Source: Oceanospirillum beijerinckii DSM 7166
GTDB taxonomy: Bacteria > Pseudomonadota > Gammaproteobacteria > Pseudomonadales > Halomonadaceae
Assembly (NCBI RefSeq): GCF_000422425.1
Contig: NZ_KE383834.1
Span: 6,298 to 60,575, forward strand
Direction: 5' to 3'
Length of the DNA: 54,278 nucleotides
Below the pieces are notes generated by a model, which was not told the DNA's origin, did no database searches, and was given only the letters and a program-made list of their open reading frames with translations. A program made the position numbers and the translations under genes. Of this stretch, positions 35,142 to 42,273 are shown piece by piece (the stretch's first letter is position 1; the number at the start of each line of letters is the position of its first letter).

Positions 35142-35464
35142 CGTTTTGGGAGTGAAGTGCTGAGGCTGGAGGGGATCAGCGCTTGGGGTGGGATTGGCTT
35201 AACGCCGCCAGCAGAGGCGCAGCTTTGCTGCGTCCTTCTCACTGGCCTTGTTAACTATTTGCCGGTAGCAACCCATATTTTATAAAAATAGAAGACACCC
35301 ATGCCTAAAATTAGCGCAGCGCCTTAGGCGCTTAAGGTGGGTGTCCAAGTTGGTAGGCATTATAGGGCGCCGCCTACCTCCCATCGTGTGTGTGGCTAAG
35401 GTTTCCCAAAGCCCTTACAAACACCGAAGTGAATGCAGAAACCTACGGAGGCAGGCGACATAAA
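35142..35464. other. gene-free stretch with strong hairpins
   Basis: Lies between the pair A dehydrogenase and the end of the second RT gene. The 35294-35345 part folds into a long hairpin: GACACCCA (35294-35301) pairs with TGGGTGTC (35338-35345), and an inner palindrome GCGCCTTAGGCGC lies at 35319-35331. Next to it GGTAGGC (35352-35358) pairs with GCCTACC (35372-35378). Could be an interspersed repeat, a bidirectional terminator or an RNA linked to the RT system. Confidence 0.5.
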
Positions 35465-37408
35465 CTAGTTATAAGAGAAAATATAGCCTTTCTTCTCCAA
35501 GCTATTTTTCAAATATTCTGGATCACTCCAACTAACAATAAAGTCTTTATTAAGCACTATCTGACTTTGCTTATTCACATCAAATTGTACTAGATTTTGT
35601 TTGCTATTCAAGGTGATTTTTTTAACTTCTTCTATCATTTTTTTTCTCACTGCCTCATCGATATATAGGCAAGCCAGATAATCAAAATAGAACATAAAGT
35701 ATTCAGAAGATATAAACATATCATCGCTGTTCAGAAAGTAATCATCAGCTGCTTTAATCAGCTCATCTCGTAGCTTATTATATTCTGGCTTCCTCTTTAT
35801 ATATAGCATAAAGGTTATCCAGCGAAAATAGAAATCATTGGTCTCTGAATATTTCTCTAAGTTACCAAAATACTCTTTTAGTTTATTTTCATGTAGCTGA
35901 TATTTTGAGGGCAGCATTGTTAAGATAATCAAGAGATTTAATATCTCAAGCCCAACCATGTCATTTGCATGATTAATAAATATATTTATTGCCTGTTTAA
36001 TATGGTCGAAAATTTTCTTGTGAATTATTTCTTTATAGTTTTCCGGCCAATCTGAAGTCCTTTCAAGAAGATCATGAATTAACCGCGCCAGTCTATCTGT
36101 TGGCCTTATCCGAATATCCATTGCATGCACAAAAAACAGCACATCCAAATCAACTAACAGCCAATTTAAATGAAATTCTTCTTTTGAATTAACTTCTGAT
36201 ATTTTTGACAAGTACGAAAGCATTCGCTTTGTGATTGCACTGAACAAATAGTTAGAAATGGAATGATACTCAAACTTGTGATTAGCCAAGGCCATTTTTA
36301 TTTCAGCTATTGTCTTATTGGCTTTATAATTTGGCTTTCTTAATTGAACAATAAATTCTGAGTCCGTGTCTTTTTCCCTGTAACGTGAACTATAGTATTC
36401 ACAAACAGCATGGCTTAATGCGTGTTTAGCCAAAGATATGTCAGTTGCAAAAGGCCTAGAGGCTATTGTTGTTTTTGCCTCATTTAAGTACATCTTATAT
36501 TCCAAAAGACTTGACTCTAGTGCTTTTATGAAAGCTATTTTCACTTCTTCAGAGCGAAAGAAAACAAAATAATCATCAACATAGCGCCTAAAGTCATAGT
36601 GTTTCGAAATTTGGTACTCATTTTGCATCATTTTATCAGCAAAGTTTAAATCGATTTTCTGTAGAATAATTTCTGCAAAAATCCGACTTACTTCAGGTCC
36701 TATGATAATACCGTTAGTCTCACGATAGTTTGTGAGCTGCATTAAACTATCGAATTCCCCATCAAAACTTCCATGAACCCTTGGCTTAGCTTTAGCCAAG
36801 CGCTTATCTTTTACAGCCCATCCAATTGAATGCGTATAAATACTTGGAAAGCACTTGGAAACATCAACCTGAAGCATGCTGTGAAACTGCTTTTCCAGTT
36901 TGTGATACTCATAAGACTCGAAAAAACGATATAAAAAAGGGTACTTTTTGTATTTAAAATAGGAGCTTGAAACAATTCGCTCTTCGTCTGCACTTTCAAC
37001 ACCATCAGCTAGCTTTGATCCTTCTTGGGTTTTACCATAAAATTTGGTTGATTTTCTATAAGGGTGTCTCAAAGAGTAATTTGATTTTGTACAGTAATAT
37101 TCGATTAGATCATCGTATTCATTATAAAAATCACAAACTTTCAGCTGAGCTACCGGGTGCATGATTGATATTGCGCGTGGCGTACTGTTACCACCTCGAG
37201 ATACAAGGAAATCTAAAGGAATATAGACACCAGTTTCACTTTCGAAGTCCAGACCCGAAATAGTCTTATACGCATTAGCATGCGCTGACGTACTAAACCT
37301 TTGATACATTGTAAAATTAGAGAACCATAACGGTAGCTCATAGGGAAGAACATCGGTTAGCAACGTTCTTAACTTGTCATTAGTATCTACTTTAATAATG
37401 TCAGGCAT
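35465..37408 (-). CDS. reverse transcriptase, Drt3b-like (defence-associated)
   Basis: A 647-residue protein. RT motifs: Asp182 in LQVDVSKCFPSI (motif A), TNGIIIGPEVSRIFAEIIL (residues 231-249, motif B), RRYVDDYFVFF with YVDD at 276-279 (motif C), and YLNEAKTTI (motif D). The last ~350 residues are a helical domain with no nuclease or maturase signature. It overlaps the upstream 393-residue RT by eight bases. Two adjacent RTs of about 390 and 650 residues match the type 3 defence-associated RT systems (DRT3: UG3 plus UG8). Strongly AT-rich, unlike the flanking catabolic genes. Confidence 0.8.
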   Translation of the reverse strand: MPDIIKVDTNDKLRTLLTDVLPYELPLWFSNFTMYQRFSTSAHANAYKTISGLDFESETGVYIPLDFLVSRGGNSTPRAISIMHPVAQLKVCDFYNEYDDLIEYYCTKSNYSLRHPYRKSTKFYGKTQEGSKLADGVESADEERIVSSSYFKYKKYPFLYRFFESYEYHKLEKQFHSMLQVDVSKCFPSIYTHSIGWAVKDKRLAKAKPRVHGSFDGEFDSLMQLTNYRETNGIIIGPEVSRIFAEIILQKIDLNFADKMMQNEYQISKHYDFRRYVDDYFVFFRSEEVKIAFIKALESSLLEYKMYLNEAKTTIASRPFATDISLAKHALSHAVCEYYSSRYREKDTDSEFIVQLRKPNYKANKTIAEIKMALANHKFEYHSISNYLFSAITKRMLSYLSKISEVNSKEEFHLNWLLVDLDVLFFVHAMDIRIRPTDRLARLIHDLLERTSDWPENYKEIIHKKIFDHIKQAINIFINHANDMVGLEILNLLIILTMLPSKYQLHENKLKEYFGNLEKYSETNDFYFRWITFMLYIKRKPEYNKLRDELIKAADDYFLNSDDMFISSEYFMFYFDYLACLYIDEAVRKKMIEEVKKITLNSKQNLVQFDVNKQSQIVLNKDFIVSWSDPEYLKNSLEKKGYIFSYN

Positions 37409-38582
37409 TTTTCCAAACTCGCATTATTTGAGCTGTTTGCTTCTTGCTAAATTTCCCTACATTCCGCTTTCTTGCATTTCCATATATTGATATTTTATTA
37501 ATTTTGTTTTGTTCTTGTTGACTGAGACCAAACCGAGGGTTGACCAATTGTTGGCAGAGAAAACCATCAAGAGACTTCAAACACTCAAAATCATCAGTAA
37601 CATACTGATAGTTATGAGCAAGGCCTGCTAGCAAATCTCCATTTTTACCTTTTCGTACACTTTTCAGCATACAAATATATTCAAGCCTTCTTTTTAAAAG
37701 GGGTATATTATTTTGTTTTTTGTGATCACAAAAACTGATTGCTATCCGAGATTTAAGCTTATTTAACTTAGATTGAGATATTTTCAAAGTTACTTTGTTT
37801 GGATTATTCTTTATAGGTTCCACCTTGATGGAATAACCTAAGTAATCAAACTCTGCTGAGCATGAAGAGCCACTATAGTACTTATTAGTATTATTATTGA
37901 GATTAAGGTTCATTTCATTCATGAAGGCTTCAACATCAGTTTGTACGCTATTTTCCTTACCTGCTGGTGTAAGAATAATGATATCGTCAACATATCTTGC
38001 GCTATATATCACGTTAGGATGTGATGCTACCTTTTTATCTAACCTTTCTAAATAAAGCTCTGCAAGTGTAGGGCTTATTGACAGCCCTCTAGGTAAACCA
38101 TGCATGCCATGATTAGTCCAAGGGTCACTATGTATACTACTAAGTAACTTGATACACTCAGGGGCGAGGATCAGTTCATCTTTAAACTTATTGATTAGAT
38201 ATTCAAACTGTATGGTTTCATAACAATCTTTGATATCCAGTCGAAGGACATGATATTTGCCAGAGTCTTTTAATAGCGTTACTAGCTGTCTGACAATTCG
38301 ATTACGATCTGACTGCCTGACTTTATAAATTCTTCGAATAAACCGATCGAGTAGCTTGATTGCAAAAGCATCTTCCATATTCGCCGGGATAAAGACTGGT
38401 TTGCTCTTTACTGCCCTTGCCTCTAATGATGATAAGGTAAGGTTATGTGACTTCCAGTACTGAACCGTGTGATCTACGGCTGTTTCGACATCGCCATAAC
38501 TAGACAATAACCCCCATTGCCAAACATCTGACGATGAAAGCACTTTAGATAGTTGATCTTTATCAAAAACCTGTTTCAACAT
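37401..38582 (-). CDS. reverse transcriptase, Drt3a-like (defence-associated)
   Basis: A 393-residue RT: motif A LRLDIKDCYETI with Asp116, motif B GLPRGLSISPTLAELYLERL (162-181), motif C YVDD at 197-200 (SARYVDDIIIL), and a later FDYLGYSI. No maturase, HNH or transposon domain follows, which argues against a group II intron. It is first of the two RT genes; a stem-loop-rich non-coding region precedes it. In DRT3 the smaller RT works with an ncRNA and the larger RT to make DNA in response to phage. The assignment rests on gene pairing and size, not on a profile search. Confidence 0.8.
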   Translation of the reverse strand: MLKQVFDKDQLSKVLSSSDVWQWGLLSSYGDVETAVDHTVQYWKSHNLTLSSLEARAVKSKPVFIPANMEDAFAIKLLDRFIRRIYKVRQSDRNRIVRQLVTLLKDSGKYHVLRLDIKDCYETIQFEYLINKFKDELILAPECIKLLSSIHSDPWTNHGMHGLPRGLSISPTLAELYLERLDKKVASHPNVIYSARYVDDIIILTPAGKENSVQTDVEAFMNEMNLNLNNNTNKYYSGSSCSAEFDYLGYSIKVEPIKNNPNKVTLKISQSKLNKLKSRIAISFCDHKKQNNIPLLKRRLEYICMLKSVRKGKNGDLLAGLAHNYQYVTDDFECLKSLDGFLCQQLVNPRFGLSQQEQNKINKISIYGNARKRNVGKFSKKQTAQIMRVWKNA

Positions 38583-38760
38583 CGTTGCAGTCTATTACTT
38601 AGAGTTAACATTTTATTCATCCGCCCATGTAAGCTTCACAAGCTTGCATGGTTGGCTTACCTTGCAAGGTCGGCTTAAATTGTTGCAGAGATTACCAGCT
38701 TAAAACTGCCTACAAAAGTGCTTATTTGTACCTTTTATGTGCAGTTTTTTAAGCTTTTAT
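38583..38760 (-). ncRNA. candidate DRT3 non-coding RNA
   Basis: Directly upstream of the first RT gene, three strong stem-loops are packed in 130 bases: CCATG-x-AAGCTT pairing across 38625-38651, the palindrome ACCTTGCAAGGT at 38659-38670, and a 12-bp stem with a 2-base bulge (GCTTAAAACTGC, 38698-38709, with GCAGTTTTTTAAGC, 38741-38754) closing a 31-base loop. Type 3 DRT systems need an ncRNA; position and structure fit, but transcript ends are unknown. Confidence 0.5.
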
Positions 38761-38985
38761 ACGGAGATGACTGGTATATATAGGCCGCGGAATATTTCAT
38801 GACTCTATATGTCGGCTGGTATTTTTATCAGTTACCGCGCTGTATACGGCTGACAATTAGTAGATGCGTTTAGGGTTATCACGCTGTGGGGATGGATGAT
38901 ATTGGCCTATTATCAGGGAAGATACCGGTTAACCTTGGCGGTAGTATGGTGTGAAAGTTAACCGGGTCAAATCAGTCAGCAGATA
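38761..38985. other. gene-free stretch before the RT leader
   Basis: AT-rich, no convincing gene. It probably includes the promoter for the candidate ncRNA and RT genes on the minus strand. Short inverted repeats are present but none is striking. Confidence 0.35.
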
Positions 38986-39255
38986 TTATTGTTCGCCAAA
39001 CACATCATCCAGGCTTTTGGCATCAAAGATATTATCCGTCCACAAGATCAGCTCATCGGCTGAAGCCTGGTGTATTTTCTGGATAGTTTCACCCGATAAT
39101 TCACCAAATCGACGTGTTAGCTGGCGCTGTAAAACGTTAGCTTCGCCTTCTAAGCGTCCCTCTTCCCAGCCTTGTTGAAGGCCTTCCTCAATACCTTGCC
39201 GAAGTCCTTCCTGCTTCCATTCTTCTACCCAGGTTTTTACACGTTCGGCCAACAT
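38986..39255 (-). CDS. stand-alone C-terminal domain of an Rpn nuclease (RpnS-like or remnant)
   Basis: An 89-residue protein that aligns along its whole length with the last 88 residues of the Rpn protein encoded just upstream: both begin MLAERVKTW and end in a W-T-x-x-IFD...L-VFG-Q pattern. The homology continues about ten codons upstream of the ATG, into a stop, which marks it as a cut-down duplicate. A GGT-rich ribosome-binding-like sequence sits before the ATG. In Rpn families a short C-terminal product made from an internal start can block the full-length nuclease; this gene could supply such a product, or be a dead remnant. Confidence 0.6.
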   Translation of the reverse strand: MLAERVKTWVEEWKQEGLRQGIEEGLQQGWEEGRLEGEANVLQRQLTRRFGELSGETIQKIHQASADELILWTDNIFDAKSLDDVFGEQ

Positions 39256-39328
39256 GCTGTGTACCTTATGCAGATCAGTGATCTGTCAATTGTCTTAGTT
39301 TTATGCTTTTCAATAGCAAAGGATAGGA

Positions 39329-40399
39329 TTATTGCTTACCAAACACTTCTTCCAGACTTTCGATATCAAAAATAGCTTCCGTCCATTGATCAAGCTCTTC
39401 TGCTGTAGCCTGATTTAGACGCTGAATATTCTCTTCTGATAGCAGCCCAAAGCGTCGAGTAAGCAGCTTCTGCACTGTGACAGCTTTTCTTTGGCGTTCC
39501 TGCTCCCTTTCTTGTTCGATACCTTCCTGAACTCCCTGCTGAATCCCTTCCTGCTTCCATTCTTCTGTCCAGGTTTTTACGCGTTCGGCCAACATGCTGT
39601 GTACCTCATGCAAGTTATGAATCTGTTCAAATTGTACACCAGGAACTCGGGCTGGGAGTAATACTCGTTTTAGCCAGAGGGTGAAATTTCGCCTGAGCCC
39701 GGTTTGTTCCGGTTGTTTTAGCCATTCGATAAGGGCGGTGAGGATTCTTTGCATATCTGCGGGGGTGCGGCTGTTTTCCAGTGCAAAGAGTGCTGAGACG
39801 AGGTTTTTGACCTCAGGTAAAGACTCATCCTGATAGTGTTTTTCATCCAACAGGCAGTAGCGAAAGTGTGGTTGGTAGAGATGCAACCCGCCGGGGACAT
39901 TTTCAATCAGTTCGTTAAGCTCTAAAGGGGCCGTCCAGTTGCGTTCGCCGTTGTAGAGCACCAGTGGAAATACTGGCGGCAGTTTGCCATTGGGTGTCAG
40001 GCGTTTGGTTTTGCGTAGGTCATCCATTAGCAGGCTGCTGTAGATATTTAACCGCAATGGCATATAGCGGTCGACACTGGATTGAAACTCCAGCAAGAGA
40101 TAAATATATAGCCAGCCTTCGTTACTCTGCTTCTGTTCGGCTTGCGAGATTTTTGAGGTTTCGACTGAGCTTTTCCAGCGCACTCGCCAGATAATATCGT
40201 CTTCCCGATCTCTTAGATCATCACTGGTATAGCTGCCACTGACAGTTTCTAAGGTGCTGAGATCCAGCTGTTCAACCCAGGGTTCTTTGATATAGCCGGT
40301 AAGAAGGTCGGATACCATTTCTGGATGGCTAAAGAGCAGCTTGTAGCTATTATCGTGGGCGTTGTGGGGAGTATTGTGATAGGCATTATCGTTGGTCAT
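39329..40399 (-). CDS. Rpn-family PD-(D/E)XK nuclease
   Basis: A 356-residue protein. The N-terminal two thirds carry the Rpn/YhgA-type transposase-like nuclease domain (HDNSYKLLFSHPEMVSDLL, then DDIIWRV, and LLEFQSSVDRYMPLR, where the Glu-x-Gln belongs to the PD-(D/E)XK core). The C-terminal part is a charged coiled coil (EQEREQERQRK) plus a small helical domain. An internal ATG at 39595 (residue 269) has GAGG at a suitable distance, so a short C-terminal product is possible. Such proteins are DNA endonucleases linked to recombination and phage defence. Confidence 0.8.
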   Translation of the reverse strand: MTNDNAYHNTPHNAHDNSYKLLFSHPEMVSDLLTGYIKEPWVEQLDLSTLETVSGSYTSDDLRDREDDIIWRVRWKSSVETSKISQAEQKQSNEGWLYIYLLLEFQSSVDRYMPLRLNIYSSLLMDDLRKTKRLTPNGKLPPVFPLVLYNGERNWTAPLELNELIENVPGGLHLYQPHFRYCLLDEKHYQDESLPEVKNLVSALFALENSRTPADMQRILTALIEWLKQPEQTGLRRNFTLWLKRVLLPARVPGVQFEQIHNLHEVHSMLAERVKTWTEEWKQEGIQQGVQEGIEQEREQERQRKAVTVQKLLTRRFGLLSEENIQRLNQATAEELDQWTEAIFDIESLEEVFGKQ

Positions 40400-40659: not shown

Positions 40660-42273
40660 TTAGGCGTTCACCTCAACCCAATCCATCTGTACCAGATTTC
40701 GGGCATGGGTATTAAAAATCATGCCCACTTCAAAGATGTGTTTTCCTGCTTCTGCAGCCTGATTCGCGGTCAGGTACTTGGCGGAATACTGCCTACTCTG
40801 GATCTGCTCCAGTGCCGGATTAGGCATTTGGGGCTGGTATTCGTTGGAGGTATCGCGTTTAAACTCGATGACATAGATAAAGTCACCGAGAATAACCGTC
40901 ATATCCGCCTGGCCGTGACAGCTGATATCTTCGGGGATGATGGTGGCATTCAGACTGGCAAAAAACGCATATAGCACAGAGGCGTAATAGCCTTCGGAAT
41001 CCGGTAGGTCATTTTGATTAAAGTTACGCCAAGGGATACCAGCGAATAGCGCTTTTATTTGCTGCTGCAGCCTTGCAAGATCGCCGGTACTCAACAACCG
41101 AAAGATCTCTTGTCGCCACTGCATTGCTGCGGATTCGATCTCGGCATAAGCACCGATAAAGTGAGTGTTTAAAGCAGAGCGAACCTCACGATTGGGTACT
41201 TTCAACTGATAGACCAGTTCGCCAAAGTCTGTCTCATAACAGTTGTTCAGCGTCAGGTAACCAGCCTGAAACAGTAACGTAATGGGATTAATCCGCTCTA
41301 CATCAAAAGAATCCAGAATATCCTCACCGACCTCGATAGCTTCCAGATCAGGTAAAAAATACTGCCTTTGTTTAAACAGTTTCAGTAAAAAAGAGGGACT
41401 GCCGGTCTCAAACCAGTAGTTTTTAAACCTGCAACCACCATCAATAAACAGCAGGATATCGTAAGGGTTATAAACCGCCTGACCTGAGAACTGATAACCG
41501 TTGTACCACTCTTTTAGCTGTTCCCAATCGACACCTTGTAGATGTCCGGCAAATTCGGTTTTCAGATCCTGTTCGGTATAACCACAGATGGTGGCGTATT
41601 TAGTGTGCAGTGTCAGATCCTGAATCTGATTGATGCCACTAAACAAGCTGACTTTGGAAAACTTGGTTACTCCCGTCATAAAGACAAACTGAATATAGGC
41701 ATCCTGCCCCTTCATCACCGAATAGAGGTTTTTCAGGCCTTCGCGCATCTGCGCTGCTTGTTCAGGCTGTTCGATATTATCCAGAATAGGTTTGTCGTAT
41801 TCGTCGATCAGAATAACCACTTTCTGAGCATACTTTTTATGGCATGCAACGATCAGATCACGAAAACAACCGGGGATATCATTAGCCTGTTGTTGAGTGG
41901 AATAATGAATAGAGTGCGGAATGGAGACACCCAGTTGATCAGCGCAGTCCTGTAGCATCTTACGAATACGCAGGTCTAACGCTTCCCGGCTCTGCAGAGT
42001 GCCATCGGCAAAATCCAGTTTGATCACAGGATAGGTCTGAGACCAGTCCCATTTGTCCTCAATATAGAGTCCCTGAAAGAGTTTTCGGTTACCCTCAAAC
42101 AGCTCCTTAAAGGTATCCAGTAATAGACTTTTACCAAAACGACGGGGACGGGATAAAAAATTGGCCTTACTTCCCTGCAGCATATTATGCATATGCTCAG
42201 TTTTATCGACGTAAAGATGCTGATCATCACGAATTTCTGCAAAGGTCTGCACCGCTATGGGAAGCTTTTTCAT
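40660..42273 (-). CDS. AAA-ATPase-like protein with PD-(D/E)XK domain
   Basis: A 537-residue protein. The N-terminal AAA-ATPase-like domain has LPIAVQTFAEIRDD, YVDKTEHMHNML, the P-loop-like SRPRRFGKSLLLDTF and Walker B VVILIDEYDKPI. The C-terminal 100 residues contain the PD-(D/E)XK nuclease-like stretch (ADMTVILGDFIYVIEFKRD, Asp...Glu-x-Lys). This combination is a widespread family of unknown function, common in genomic islands. It is separated from the flanking catabolic operon by a terminator and a long hairpin. Confidence 0.85.
   Translation of the reverse strand: MKKLPIAVQTFAEIRDDQHLYVDKTEHMHNMLQGSKANFLSRPRRFGKSLLLDTFKELFEGNRKLFQGLYIEDKWDWSQTYPVIKLDFADGTLQSREALDLRIRKMLQDCADQLGVSIPHSIHYSTQQQANDIPGCFRDLIVACHKKYAQKVVILIDEYDKPILDNIEQPEQAAQMREGLKNLYSVMKGQDAYIQFVFMTGVTKFSKVSLFSGINQIQDLTLHTKYATICGYTEQDLKTEFAGHLQGVDWEQLKEWYNGYQFSGQAVYNPYDILLFIDGGCRFKNYWFETGSPSFLLKLFKQRQYFLPDLEAIEVGEDILDSFDVERINPITLLFQAGYLTLNNCYETDFGELVYQLKVPNREVRSALNTHFIGAYAEIESAAMQWRQEIFRLLSTGDLARLQQQIKALFAGIPWRNFNQNDLPDSEGYYASVLYAFFASLNATIIPEDISCHGQADMTVILGDFIYVIEFKRDTSNEYQPQMPNPALEQIQSRQYSAKYLTANQAAEAGKHIFEVGMIFNTHARNLVQMDWVEVNA

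Follow-up and report, generated by a model that had tools for sequence, protein, structure and literature searches.

A distant DRT3 reverse transcriptase pair with its predicted RNA, probably carried as a single integron gene cassette, in Oceanospirillum beijerinckii

A 54,278-nucleotide stretch of the Oceanospirillum beijerinckii DSM 7166 genome (assembly GCF_000422425.1, contig NZ_KE383834.1, positions 6,298 to 60,575; hereafter the window, meaning this whole stretch) holds two overlapping reverse transcriptase (RT) genes among acyl-CoA dehydrogenase genes. This raises three questions: to which RT family the pair belongs, which RNA serves it, and how it came to stand there. We identify the pair by sequence as type 3 defence-associated reverse transcriptases (DRT3), with the RNA of the system predicted downstream of the second gene, and judge that the complete putative anti-phage system probably forms one integron gene cassette (Table 1).

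Results

The two genes, drt3a and drt3b, overlap by 8 nucleotides (nt) at 37401-37408. Each protein contains YVDD once, at residue 197 of Drt3a and residues 276-279 of Drt3b, and inspection of the sequences reveals the motif A Asp in both (D182 in Drt3b), so the catalytic RT motifs are intact in the two proteins. RVT_1 was the sole domain detected in either protein by a Pfam search, with maturase and nuclease domains absent. When compared with the PADLOC profiles, Drt3a was best matched by Drt3a PDLC02174 (E = 2.9e-128, residues 1-392) and Drt3b by Drt3b PDLC02176 (E = 3.2e-197), while the next-best families were RT_UG17 (E = 1.7e-37) and Drt6 (E = 4.3e-48), respectively. Among solved structures in the PDB (phmmer), the top chain for Drt3a was 9z6y_A, named Drt3a (E = 1e-27), and the top chains for Drt3b were 26cz_A (E = 5.3e-100) and 9z6y_H, named Drt3b (E = 1.6e-78). 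A UG3-type Drt3a and a UG8-type Drt3b thus lie side by side, as in a DRT3 system. The 35203-38608 block has a GC content of 36.2%, against 52.9% and 47.5% in its 5-kb flanks, and acyl-CoA dehydrogenase genes are among the neighbors on both sides (Pfam). The first-pass annotation of the window was accurate on these points: it had described two overlapping RT genes of 393 and 647 codons, YVDD and the motif A Asp in both, no maturase or nuclease domain, and AT-richness compared with the neighbors. The profile search against RT families that it had proposed favored Drt3a and Drt3b by a wide margin, and its reading of the locus as DRT3 in a catabolic setting is supported by PADLOC, the PDB matches, and the flanking genes.

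The mechanism of DRT3 has been worked out on Escherichia coli systems. In the available text of the preprint by Wang et al. (PMC13174585), Drt3b of E. coli uses E22 as a dA gate, R241 as a dC switch and R71 as a helper, coordinates metal with D182 and D278, and is primed on Y666, the penultimate of its 667 residues; the available text of a review gives the same mechanism (PMC13314766). We took 26cz to be that E. coli Drt3b because an offset of 108 reconciles the numbering. Counted along the 26cz alignment, E22, R71, D182, R241, and D278 correspond to E24, R78, D182, R242, and D278 in the window Drt3b. The dA gate, the dC switch, and a C-terminal priming tyrosine are all present, the last being Y646, penultimate of 647, which is matched to Y666 by position alone, the alignment stopping at residue 641.

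A single scan of genome contigs yielded six relatives. Five are full-length, with Drt3b 80-88% identical to that of the window: Marinobacterium nitratireducens (L009), Methylomonas sp. WSC-7 (L010), a Methylococcaceae metagenome-assembled genome (L011), Vreelandella zhaodongensis (L012), and an uncultured Shewanella (L013). The sixth, from Zobellella taiwanensis (L014), is truncated: its drt3b is cut after ~155 residues by unrelated sequence from ~6450 onward. E24, R78, D182, R242, YVDD (276-279), and Y646 are invariant in the six Drt3b sequences of the window and the five full-length relatives.

The published DRT3 noncoding RNA (ncRNA) lies downstream of drt3b and contains a 5'-ACACAC-3' template that adjoins stem-loop 4 (PMC13174585, available text). 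The same arrangement is found in the window, where the sequence and predicted fold downstream of drt3b place an AC-repeat template, ACACACAC (CACACACAC with the preceding C), beside a stem-loop. The ncRNA region can be aligned end to end in all six close loci (the window and the five full-length relatives), and ACACACAC/CACACACAC is invariant in all six, inside a conserved stem. The closing stem is 13 bp long. Standard pairs occupy 96.8% of 156 pair cells across these loci, against 37.8-51.9% when the partners are slid. The downstream folds have z-scores of -2.4 to -4.3 in five sequences, those of the window and of all full-length relatives except L011, and the Shewanella ncRNA has one hairpin region that is ~30 nt longer. 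As for the AC run itself, 30 of 10,000 mononucleotide shuffles reach the 8 nt seen in the window. AC runs of 6-8 nt also occur within 300 nt downstream of drt3b in 6/6 distant plasmid DRT3 loci, which were six of the eight DRT3-like loci topping the list (all except H20 and H23), a 6-nt run in 300 nt being not rare by chance. A scan that was not anchored on the end of drt3b, and was left out of this count, gave CACACAC in L006 and L008 and AC runs of at most 4 nt in L005, L007, and L058. We conclude that the RNA of the system is the one predicted downstream of drt3b, as in published DRT3, and that the locus represents, by its sequence, a distant and complete example of DRT3 in environmental gammaproteobacteria, with key residues and template kept.

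Beyond the ncRNA lies a further hairpin, to which related sequence occurs in L010 and, inverted, in L011; a consensus scan did not call it a terminator. No match in the window reached the Rfam gathering threshold.

Table 1. Features of the DRT3 unit (window coordinates)
Feature	Position	Strand	Description
drt3a	37401..38582	-	UG3 reverse transcriptase, 393 residues; PADLOC, PDB, Pfam, YVDD
drt3b	35465..37408	-	UG8 reverse transcriptase, 647 residues; PADLOC, PDB, key residues
Predicted DRT3 ncRNA	35365..35464	-	closing stem 35447-35459 / 35369-35381 and three inner hairpins
Putative template ACACACAC (CACACACAC with preceding C)	35386..35393	-	directly 3' of last inner hairpin
Hairpin GACACCCA...TGGGTGTC, then T/A-rich sequence	35294..35345	-	inverted repeat I1; possible transcript 3' end
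attC-type site	35197..35256	-	R'' AGTTAAC, 5-nt spacer, L'', CGCAGC-AAA-GCTGCG stem, L', 5-nt spacer, R' GTTAAGC
Inferred gene cassette	35203..38608	-	3406 bp, from TTAACTCTAAG (after G at 38609) to G at 35203
Cassette leader	38583..38608	-	26 nt before drt3a, judged too short for a promoter

How the unit may have arrived is suggested by its two ends. At the 5' end, homology between loci has its boundary at G|TTAAC in four of seven cases (the window, L009, L010, and L011). Over the 27 positions before drt3a, identity to the window is 21 in L009, 23 in L010, and 21 in L011, falling to 14, 8, and 9, respectively, over the next 33 positions outward, and a blastn comparison of 38550-39300 with the six relatives gave no match upstream of 38610. 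The drop in identity and the blastn silence together indicate that the conserved unit begins ~27 nt before drt3a and leaves out the hairpins located farther upstream. At the other end is an attC-type site. Integron integrases cut R' (GTTRRRY) directly after its first base, and R'' reads RYYYAAC (PMC12901181, available text); here R' is perfect, R'' AGTTAAC has one mismatch, and the paired L boxes carry bulged bases, as judged by a home-made scan (not IntegronFinder). When the G is taken together with the six bases that open the unit, their reverse complement agrees with R'' AGTTAAC exactly (7/7) in the window and L010, and at 5/7 positions in L011; this complementarity is wanting in L012, L013, and L014. 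Folded with DNA parameters, the GCTTAAC-bearing strand forms an attC-type hairpin with bulged bases (z = -3.31, 1/200 shuffles as good), and the opposite strand reaches z = -2.82 (2/200). With its G|TT 5' boundary and an attC end complementary to its start, drt3a-drt3b-ncRNA looks like a 3406-bp integron cassette; the corresponding length in L010 is 3399 bp. The apparent insertion point is a lone G|TTAAGCC downstream of an acyl-CoA dehydrogenase gene, with no attC body seen to its left.

The scan, designed once the site was already known from visual inspection, found a single attC-like site in the 54-kb window, at the end of the DRT3 unit, and 4/2000 dinucleotide shuffles of the 323-nt region yielded such a site. 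At a setting of 45-90 nt, the only site detected in the control loci (289,880 bp) was L052; this count left out L001, L004, L010, L011, L015, L024, L037, L038, and L057. At 45-130 nt, it flagged L041 and L052 among other loci totaling 95,791 bp; L054 had one site, and the Zobellella integron locus L057 had three. Ten distinct sites found by the attC pattern were folded, from ten loci picked by eye among 30 pattern loci: seven resemble attC hairpins and three do not. Two of the seven adjoin the Shewanella integrase, one is in the O. beijerinckii genome, and one is a separate site, of the same layout, in the Shewanella genome with a close DRT3, where 19/20 core bases are identical (GGACGCTGCAAAGCTGCGCC). 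Sites with the layout seen in the window occur in Shewanella and Marinobacterium genomes.

A second solitary attC-type site was noticed in the O. beijerinckii genome (L100, contig C12, ~123770-123818), directly after a small nucleotidyltransferase-like open reading frame named by sequence inspection. A site in Vreelandella (L114) is nearly identical to it.

The relatives belong to Oceanospirillales, Methylococcales, Shewanella, and Zobellella, and their neighborhoods differ. L009 is next to a BREX gene and a helicase gene, L010 to an NYN gene and conjugation genes, L011 to integrase-like and restriction-like genes, and L012 to recD/recB (the last two named from translations). Close copies in such unrelated contexts and lineages indicate that the unit has probably moved horizontally. 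A class-level genome search matched 2 of 369 genomes at E 1e-60, the window being one of them, and a genome of the same genus had no more than fragments of another DRT3 (37% and 25% identical). DNA searches of plasmids, phages, and E. coli genomes gave no match, and in viral contigs 44 stretches fitted a pattern, none of which was confirmed.

Some side observations concern these loci. In L011 (8048-8223), the unit tail, comprising the hairpin and the attC-like site, has the opposite orientation to that in L010. In L012 (8207-13890), the DRT3 unit directly borders on the stop codon of recD, a curious adjacency given that DRT3 is, according to published work, restrained by RecBCD. Other Vreelandella (L066-L094) have different sequence or attC-like sites at the recD end.

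Several results weigh against the reading of a DRT3 system moved as a cassette. For the ncRNA, covariation was not demonstrable because the six sequences are too alike: no pair changed on both sides, and the score was reached by 405/500 shuffles. Support for the ncRNA comes from its conservation, its folding energy, and the comparison with slid partners. A covariance model run over 18 sources gave strong scores for its six training sequences only, leaving distant DRT3 RNAs unmatched; its remaining matches were two antisense (17 bits) and one due to chance (13 bits). For the ends, the G|TT start is not clearly common to L012 (14/27), L013 (7/27), and L014 (10/27). Among the five full-length relatives, the attC-like tail is clear in L010, inverted and degenerate in L011, seemingly decayed in L012, and absent in L009 and L013. 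The scan is of limited sensitivity, since it misses the shorter site in L010 and two sites beside the Shewanella integrase (in L054). Over seven genomes, the attC pattern gave 38 matches against 34 for a reversed control, exceeding the control in three of the seven (5 vs. 1 in the O. beijerinckii genome, 18 vs. 9 in Shewanella, and 7 vs. 4 in Vreelandella). With no overall enrichment, the pattern by itself proves nothing, and folding alone singles out likely sites.

Likewise, no intact integron integrase or array was found near the window and the unit is solitary; the intI, attI, and array of an integron are wanting, and no integrase in the O. beijerinckii genome exceeds the profile cut-off. 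That genome has only an integron-integrase fragment on another contig, below the cut-off (profile positions 1-139 of 315). The fragment (G000 contig C55, 20533-20947, L034) lies near a contig end. Matches below the cut-off mean little because 14/14 control genomes have them too. The profile did exceed its cut-off in two of the six relatives' genomes, Zobellella and, in two pieces, Shewanella; Vreelandella also has a fragment, that of O. beijerinckii being weaker.

No empty insertion site could be demonstrated in sister species, Methylomonas, or Vreelandella. The neighboring acyl-CoA dehydrogenase had no match at E 1e-100 in 5/5 sister species. In Methylomonas, a 405-bp query from the right flank matched 22/37 genomes of the genus, including that of L010 itself; one genome (G096) showed a 36-bp match just past the crossover in a different context, and the remaining matches begin at base 143 of the query, in the conjugation-gene part. 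In Vreelandella, the recD end was matched in 59/61 genomes and 30 loci were obtained, one being that of L012; none of the other 29 has the left flank of L012 or the sequence before its recD end. The scan found an attC-like site in three of these 29 (L066, L080, and L091, of which L066 resembles chance), and one more was seen by eye in L069.

A rival explanation is that DRT3 spread by other means, such as a transposon, a conjugative element, or natural transformation, and that the attC-like site is a chance occurrence or a relic. The lack of an integrase nearby, the conjugation genes adjoining L010, the want of a clear attC in three of the five full-length relatives, and the lack of pattern enrichment over the reversed control all speak for it, as does the size of the unit, 3406 bp being large for an integron cassette. 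We nevertheless regard it as unlikely, given that R'' and the unit start are exactly complementary in two loci, that four of seven loci share the G|TT start, that the sole attC-like site in 54 kb falls at the unit end (with few shuffles producing one), and that a nearly identical core is present at a site in the genome of a relative.

That the DRT3 has decayed or changed in function, making no product or a different repeat, is improbable. A solitary insertion whose leader is shorter than a promoter would fit such a fate. Against this, both frames are open, and neither the published key residues nor the template vary among the window and the five full-length relatives; at 80-88% Drt3b identity, this suggests purifying selection.

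It is very improbable that the RNA of the system is instead a hairpin-rich leader upstream of drt3a, as the first-pass annotation had proposed. The three hairpins on which it relied do exist as inverted repeats, at 38625-38651 (12 nt, 92%), 38643-38668 (10 nt, 90%), and 38702-38748 (17 nt, 82%), but their claimed strength did not stand: folded as RNA, the 38583-38720 leader is no better than its shuffles (z = -0.43, 58/200 at least as good). Nearly all of 38583-38760 is flank outside the conserved unit, the genes ending at 38582. The annotation had itself named loss of the hairpins in relatives as evidence against its proposal, and none of the six relatives shares them with the window. Both the published RNA and the conserved one found here, at 35365-35464, are downstream, the latter lying below 35465 and so beyond the interval that the annotation covered, and the upstream candidate was rejected. 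Finally, ordinary group II intron, retron, or diversity-generating RTs, hinted at by weak matches to maturase and retron-type RTs, have next to no chance of being the right assignment, with Drt3a ~300 bits above RT_UG17, Drt3b ~490 bits above Drt6, and no maturase domain in either.

Two neighboring loci deserve mention. On the minus strand, a DUF4351 fragment (38986-39255) beside a full YhgA-like/DUF4351 gene (39329-40399) resembles a partial tandem copy. Near the DRT3 unit, a predicted AAA-ATPase with a PDDEXK_9 nuclease domain (40660-42273, minus strand) adjoins the acyl-CoA dehydrogenase genes.

Discussion

The integron cassette is the preferred explanation of how this DRT3 system is carried. 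More generally, we consider it fairly likely that DRT3 can exist as a self-contained, promoter-poor cassette, consisting of two RTs, an ncRNA, and an attC site, which has been dropped singly at non-integron sites across bacterial orders. Cassette packaging would explain why similar copies are found in distantly related bacteria. Spread would most likely have occurred via integron integrases acting on the folded single-stranded attC hairpin, and in O. beijerinckii the cassette would have been inserted at the lone G|TTAAGCC downstream of the acyl-CoA dehydrogenase gene. Loot 2024 is said to describe cassettes outside integrons, inserted at attG sites.

By homology with the E. coli systems, Drt3a would use the ACACACAC loop of the ncRNA as its template, copying it repeatedly into poly(dTdG). 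In Drt3b, Y646 would serve as the primer and E24 and R242 would steer the synthesis of poly(dCdA), which would proceed with no nucleic acid template, in a protein-templated manner. The two products would anneal into double-stranded DNA, and this DNA would be expected to drive abortive infection once the host nuclease responsible for its removal is blocked by a phage. With only 26 nt before drt3a, in which a consensus scan found no promoter-like match, expression would have to rely on a promoter outside the cassette.

The likeness to E. coli DRT3 extends to the order drt3a-drt3b-ncRNA, both catalytic sites, the E/R gating residues, the penultimate tyrosine, and the AC-repeat template beside a stem-loop. 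The two differ in that their proteins are only distantly similar (for Drt3a and 9z6y_A, phmmer E = 1e-27), the template run is 8-9 nt instead of the reported 6-nt ACACAC, the window unit ends in an attC-type site, and the ncRNA model based on the six close loci goes unmatched in distant DRT3 loci. The close homologs L009-L013 share the ncRNA and template of the window and differ in their neighbors, with attC recognizable in L010 and, inverted, in L011 only. Anti-phage genes carried as integron cassettes have reportedly been described in 2025 by Darracq, by Getz, and by Kieffer. The window resembles those cases, as they are recounted, in having defence genes as a cassette, and differs from them in being a two-RT system with an RNA, ~3.4 kb long and alone outside an array. 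We found no earlier description of a DRT3 cassette in the available text of the literature on DRT, RTs, or phage defence together with integrons, where a prior report is possible. We class the locus as a new DRT3 member, in which the probable packaging as a cassette is what is new.

Should the unit be a cassette, the cargo of integrons would extend beyond small defence genes to a whole ribonucleoprotein polymerase system. Having no internal promoter, such a cassette would be predicted to have its defence switched on or off by the place where it lands.

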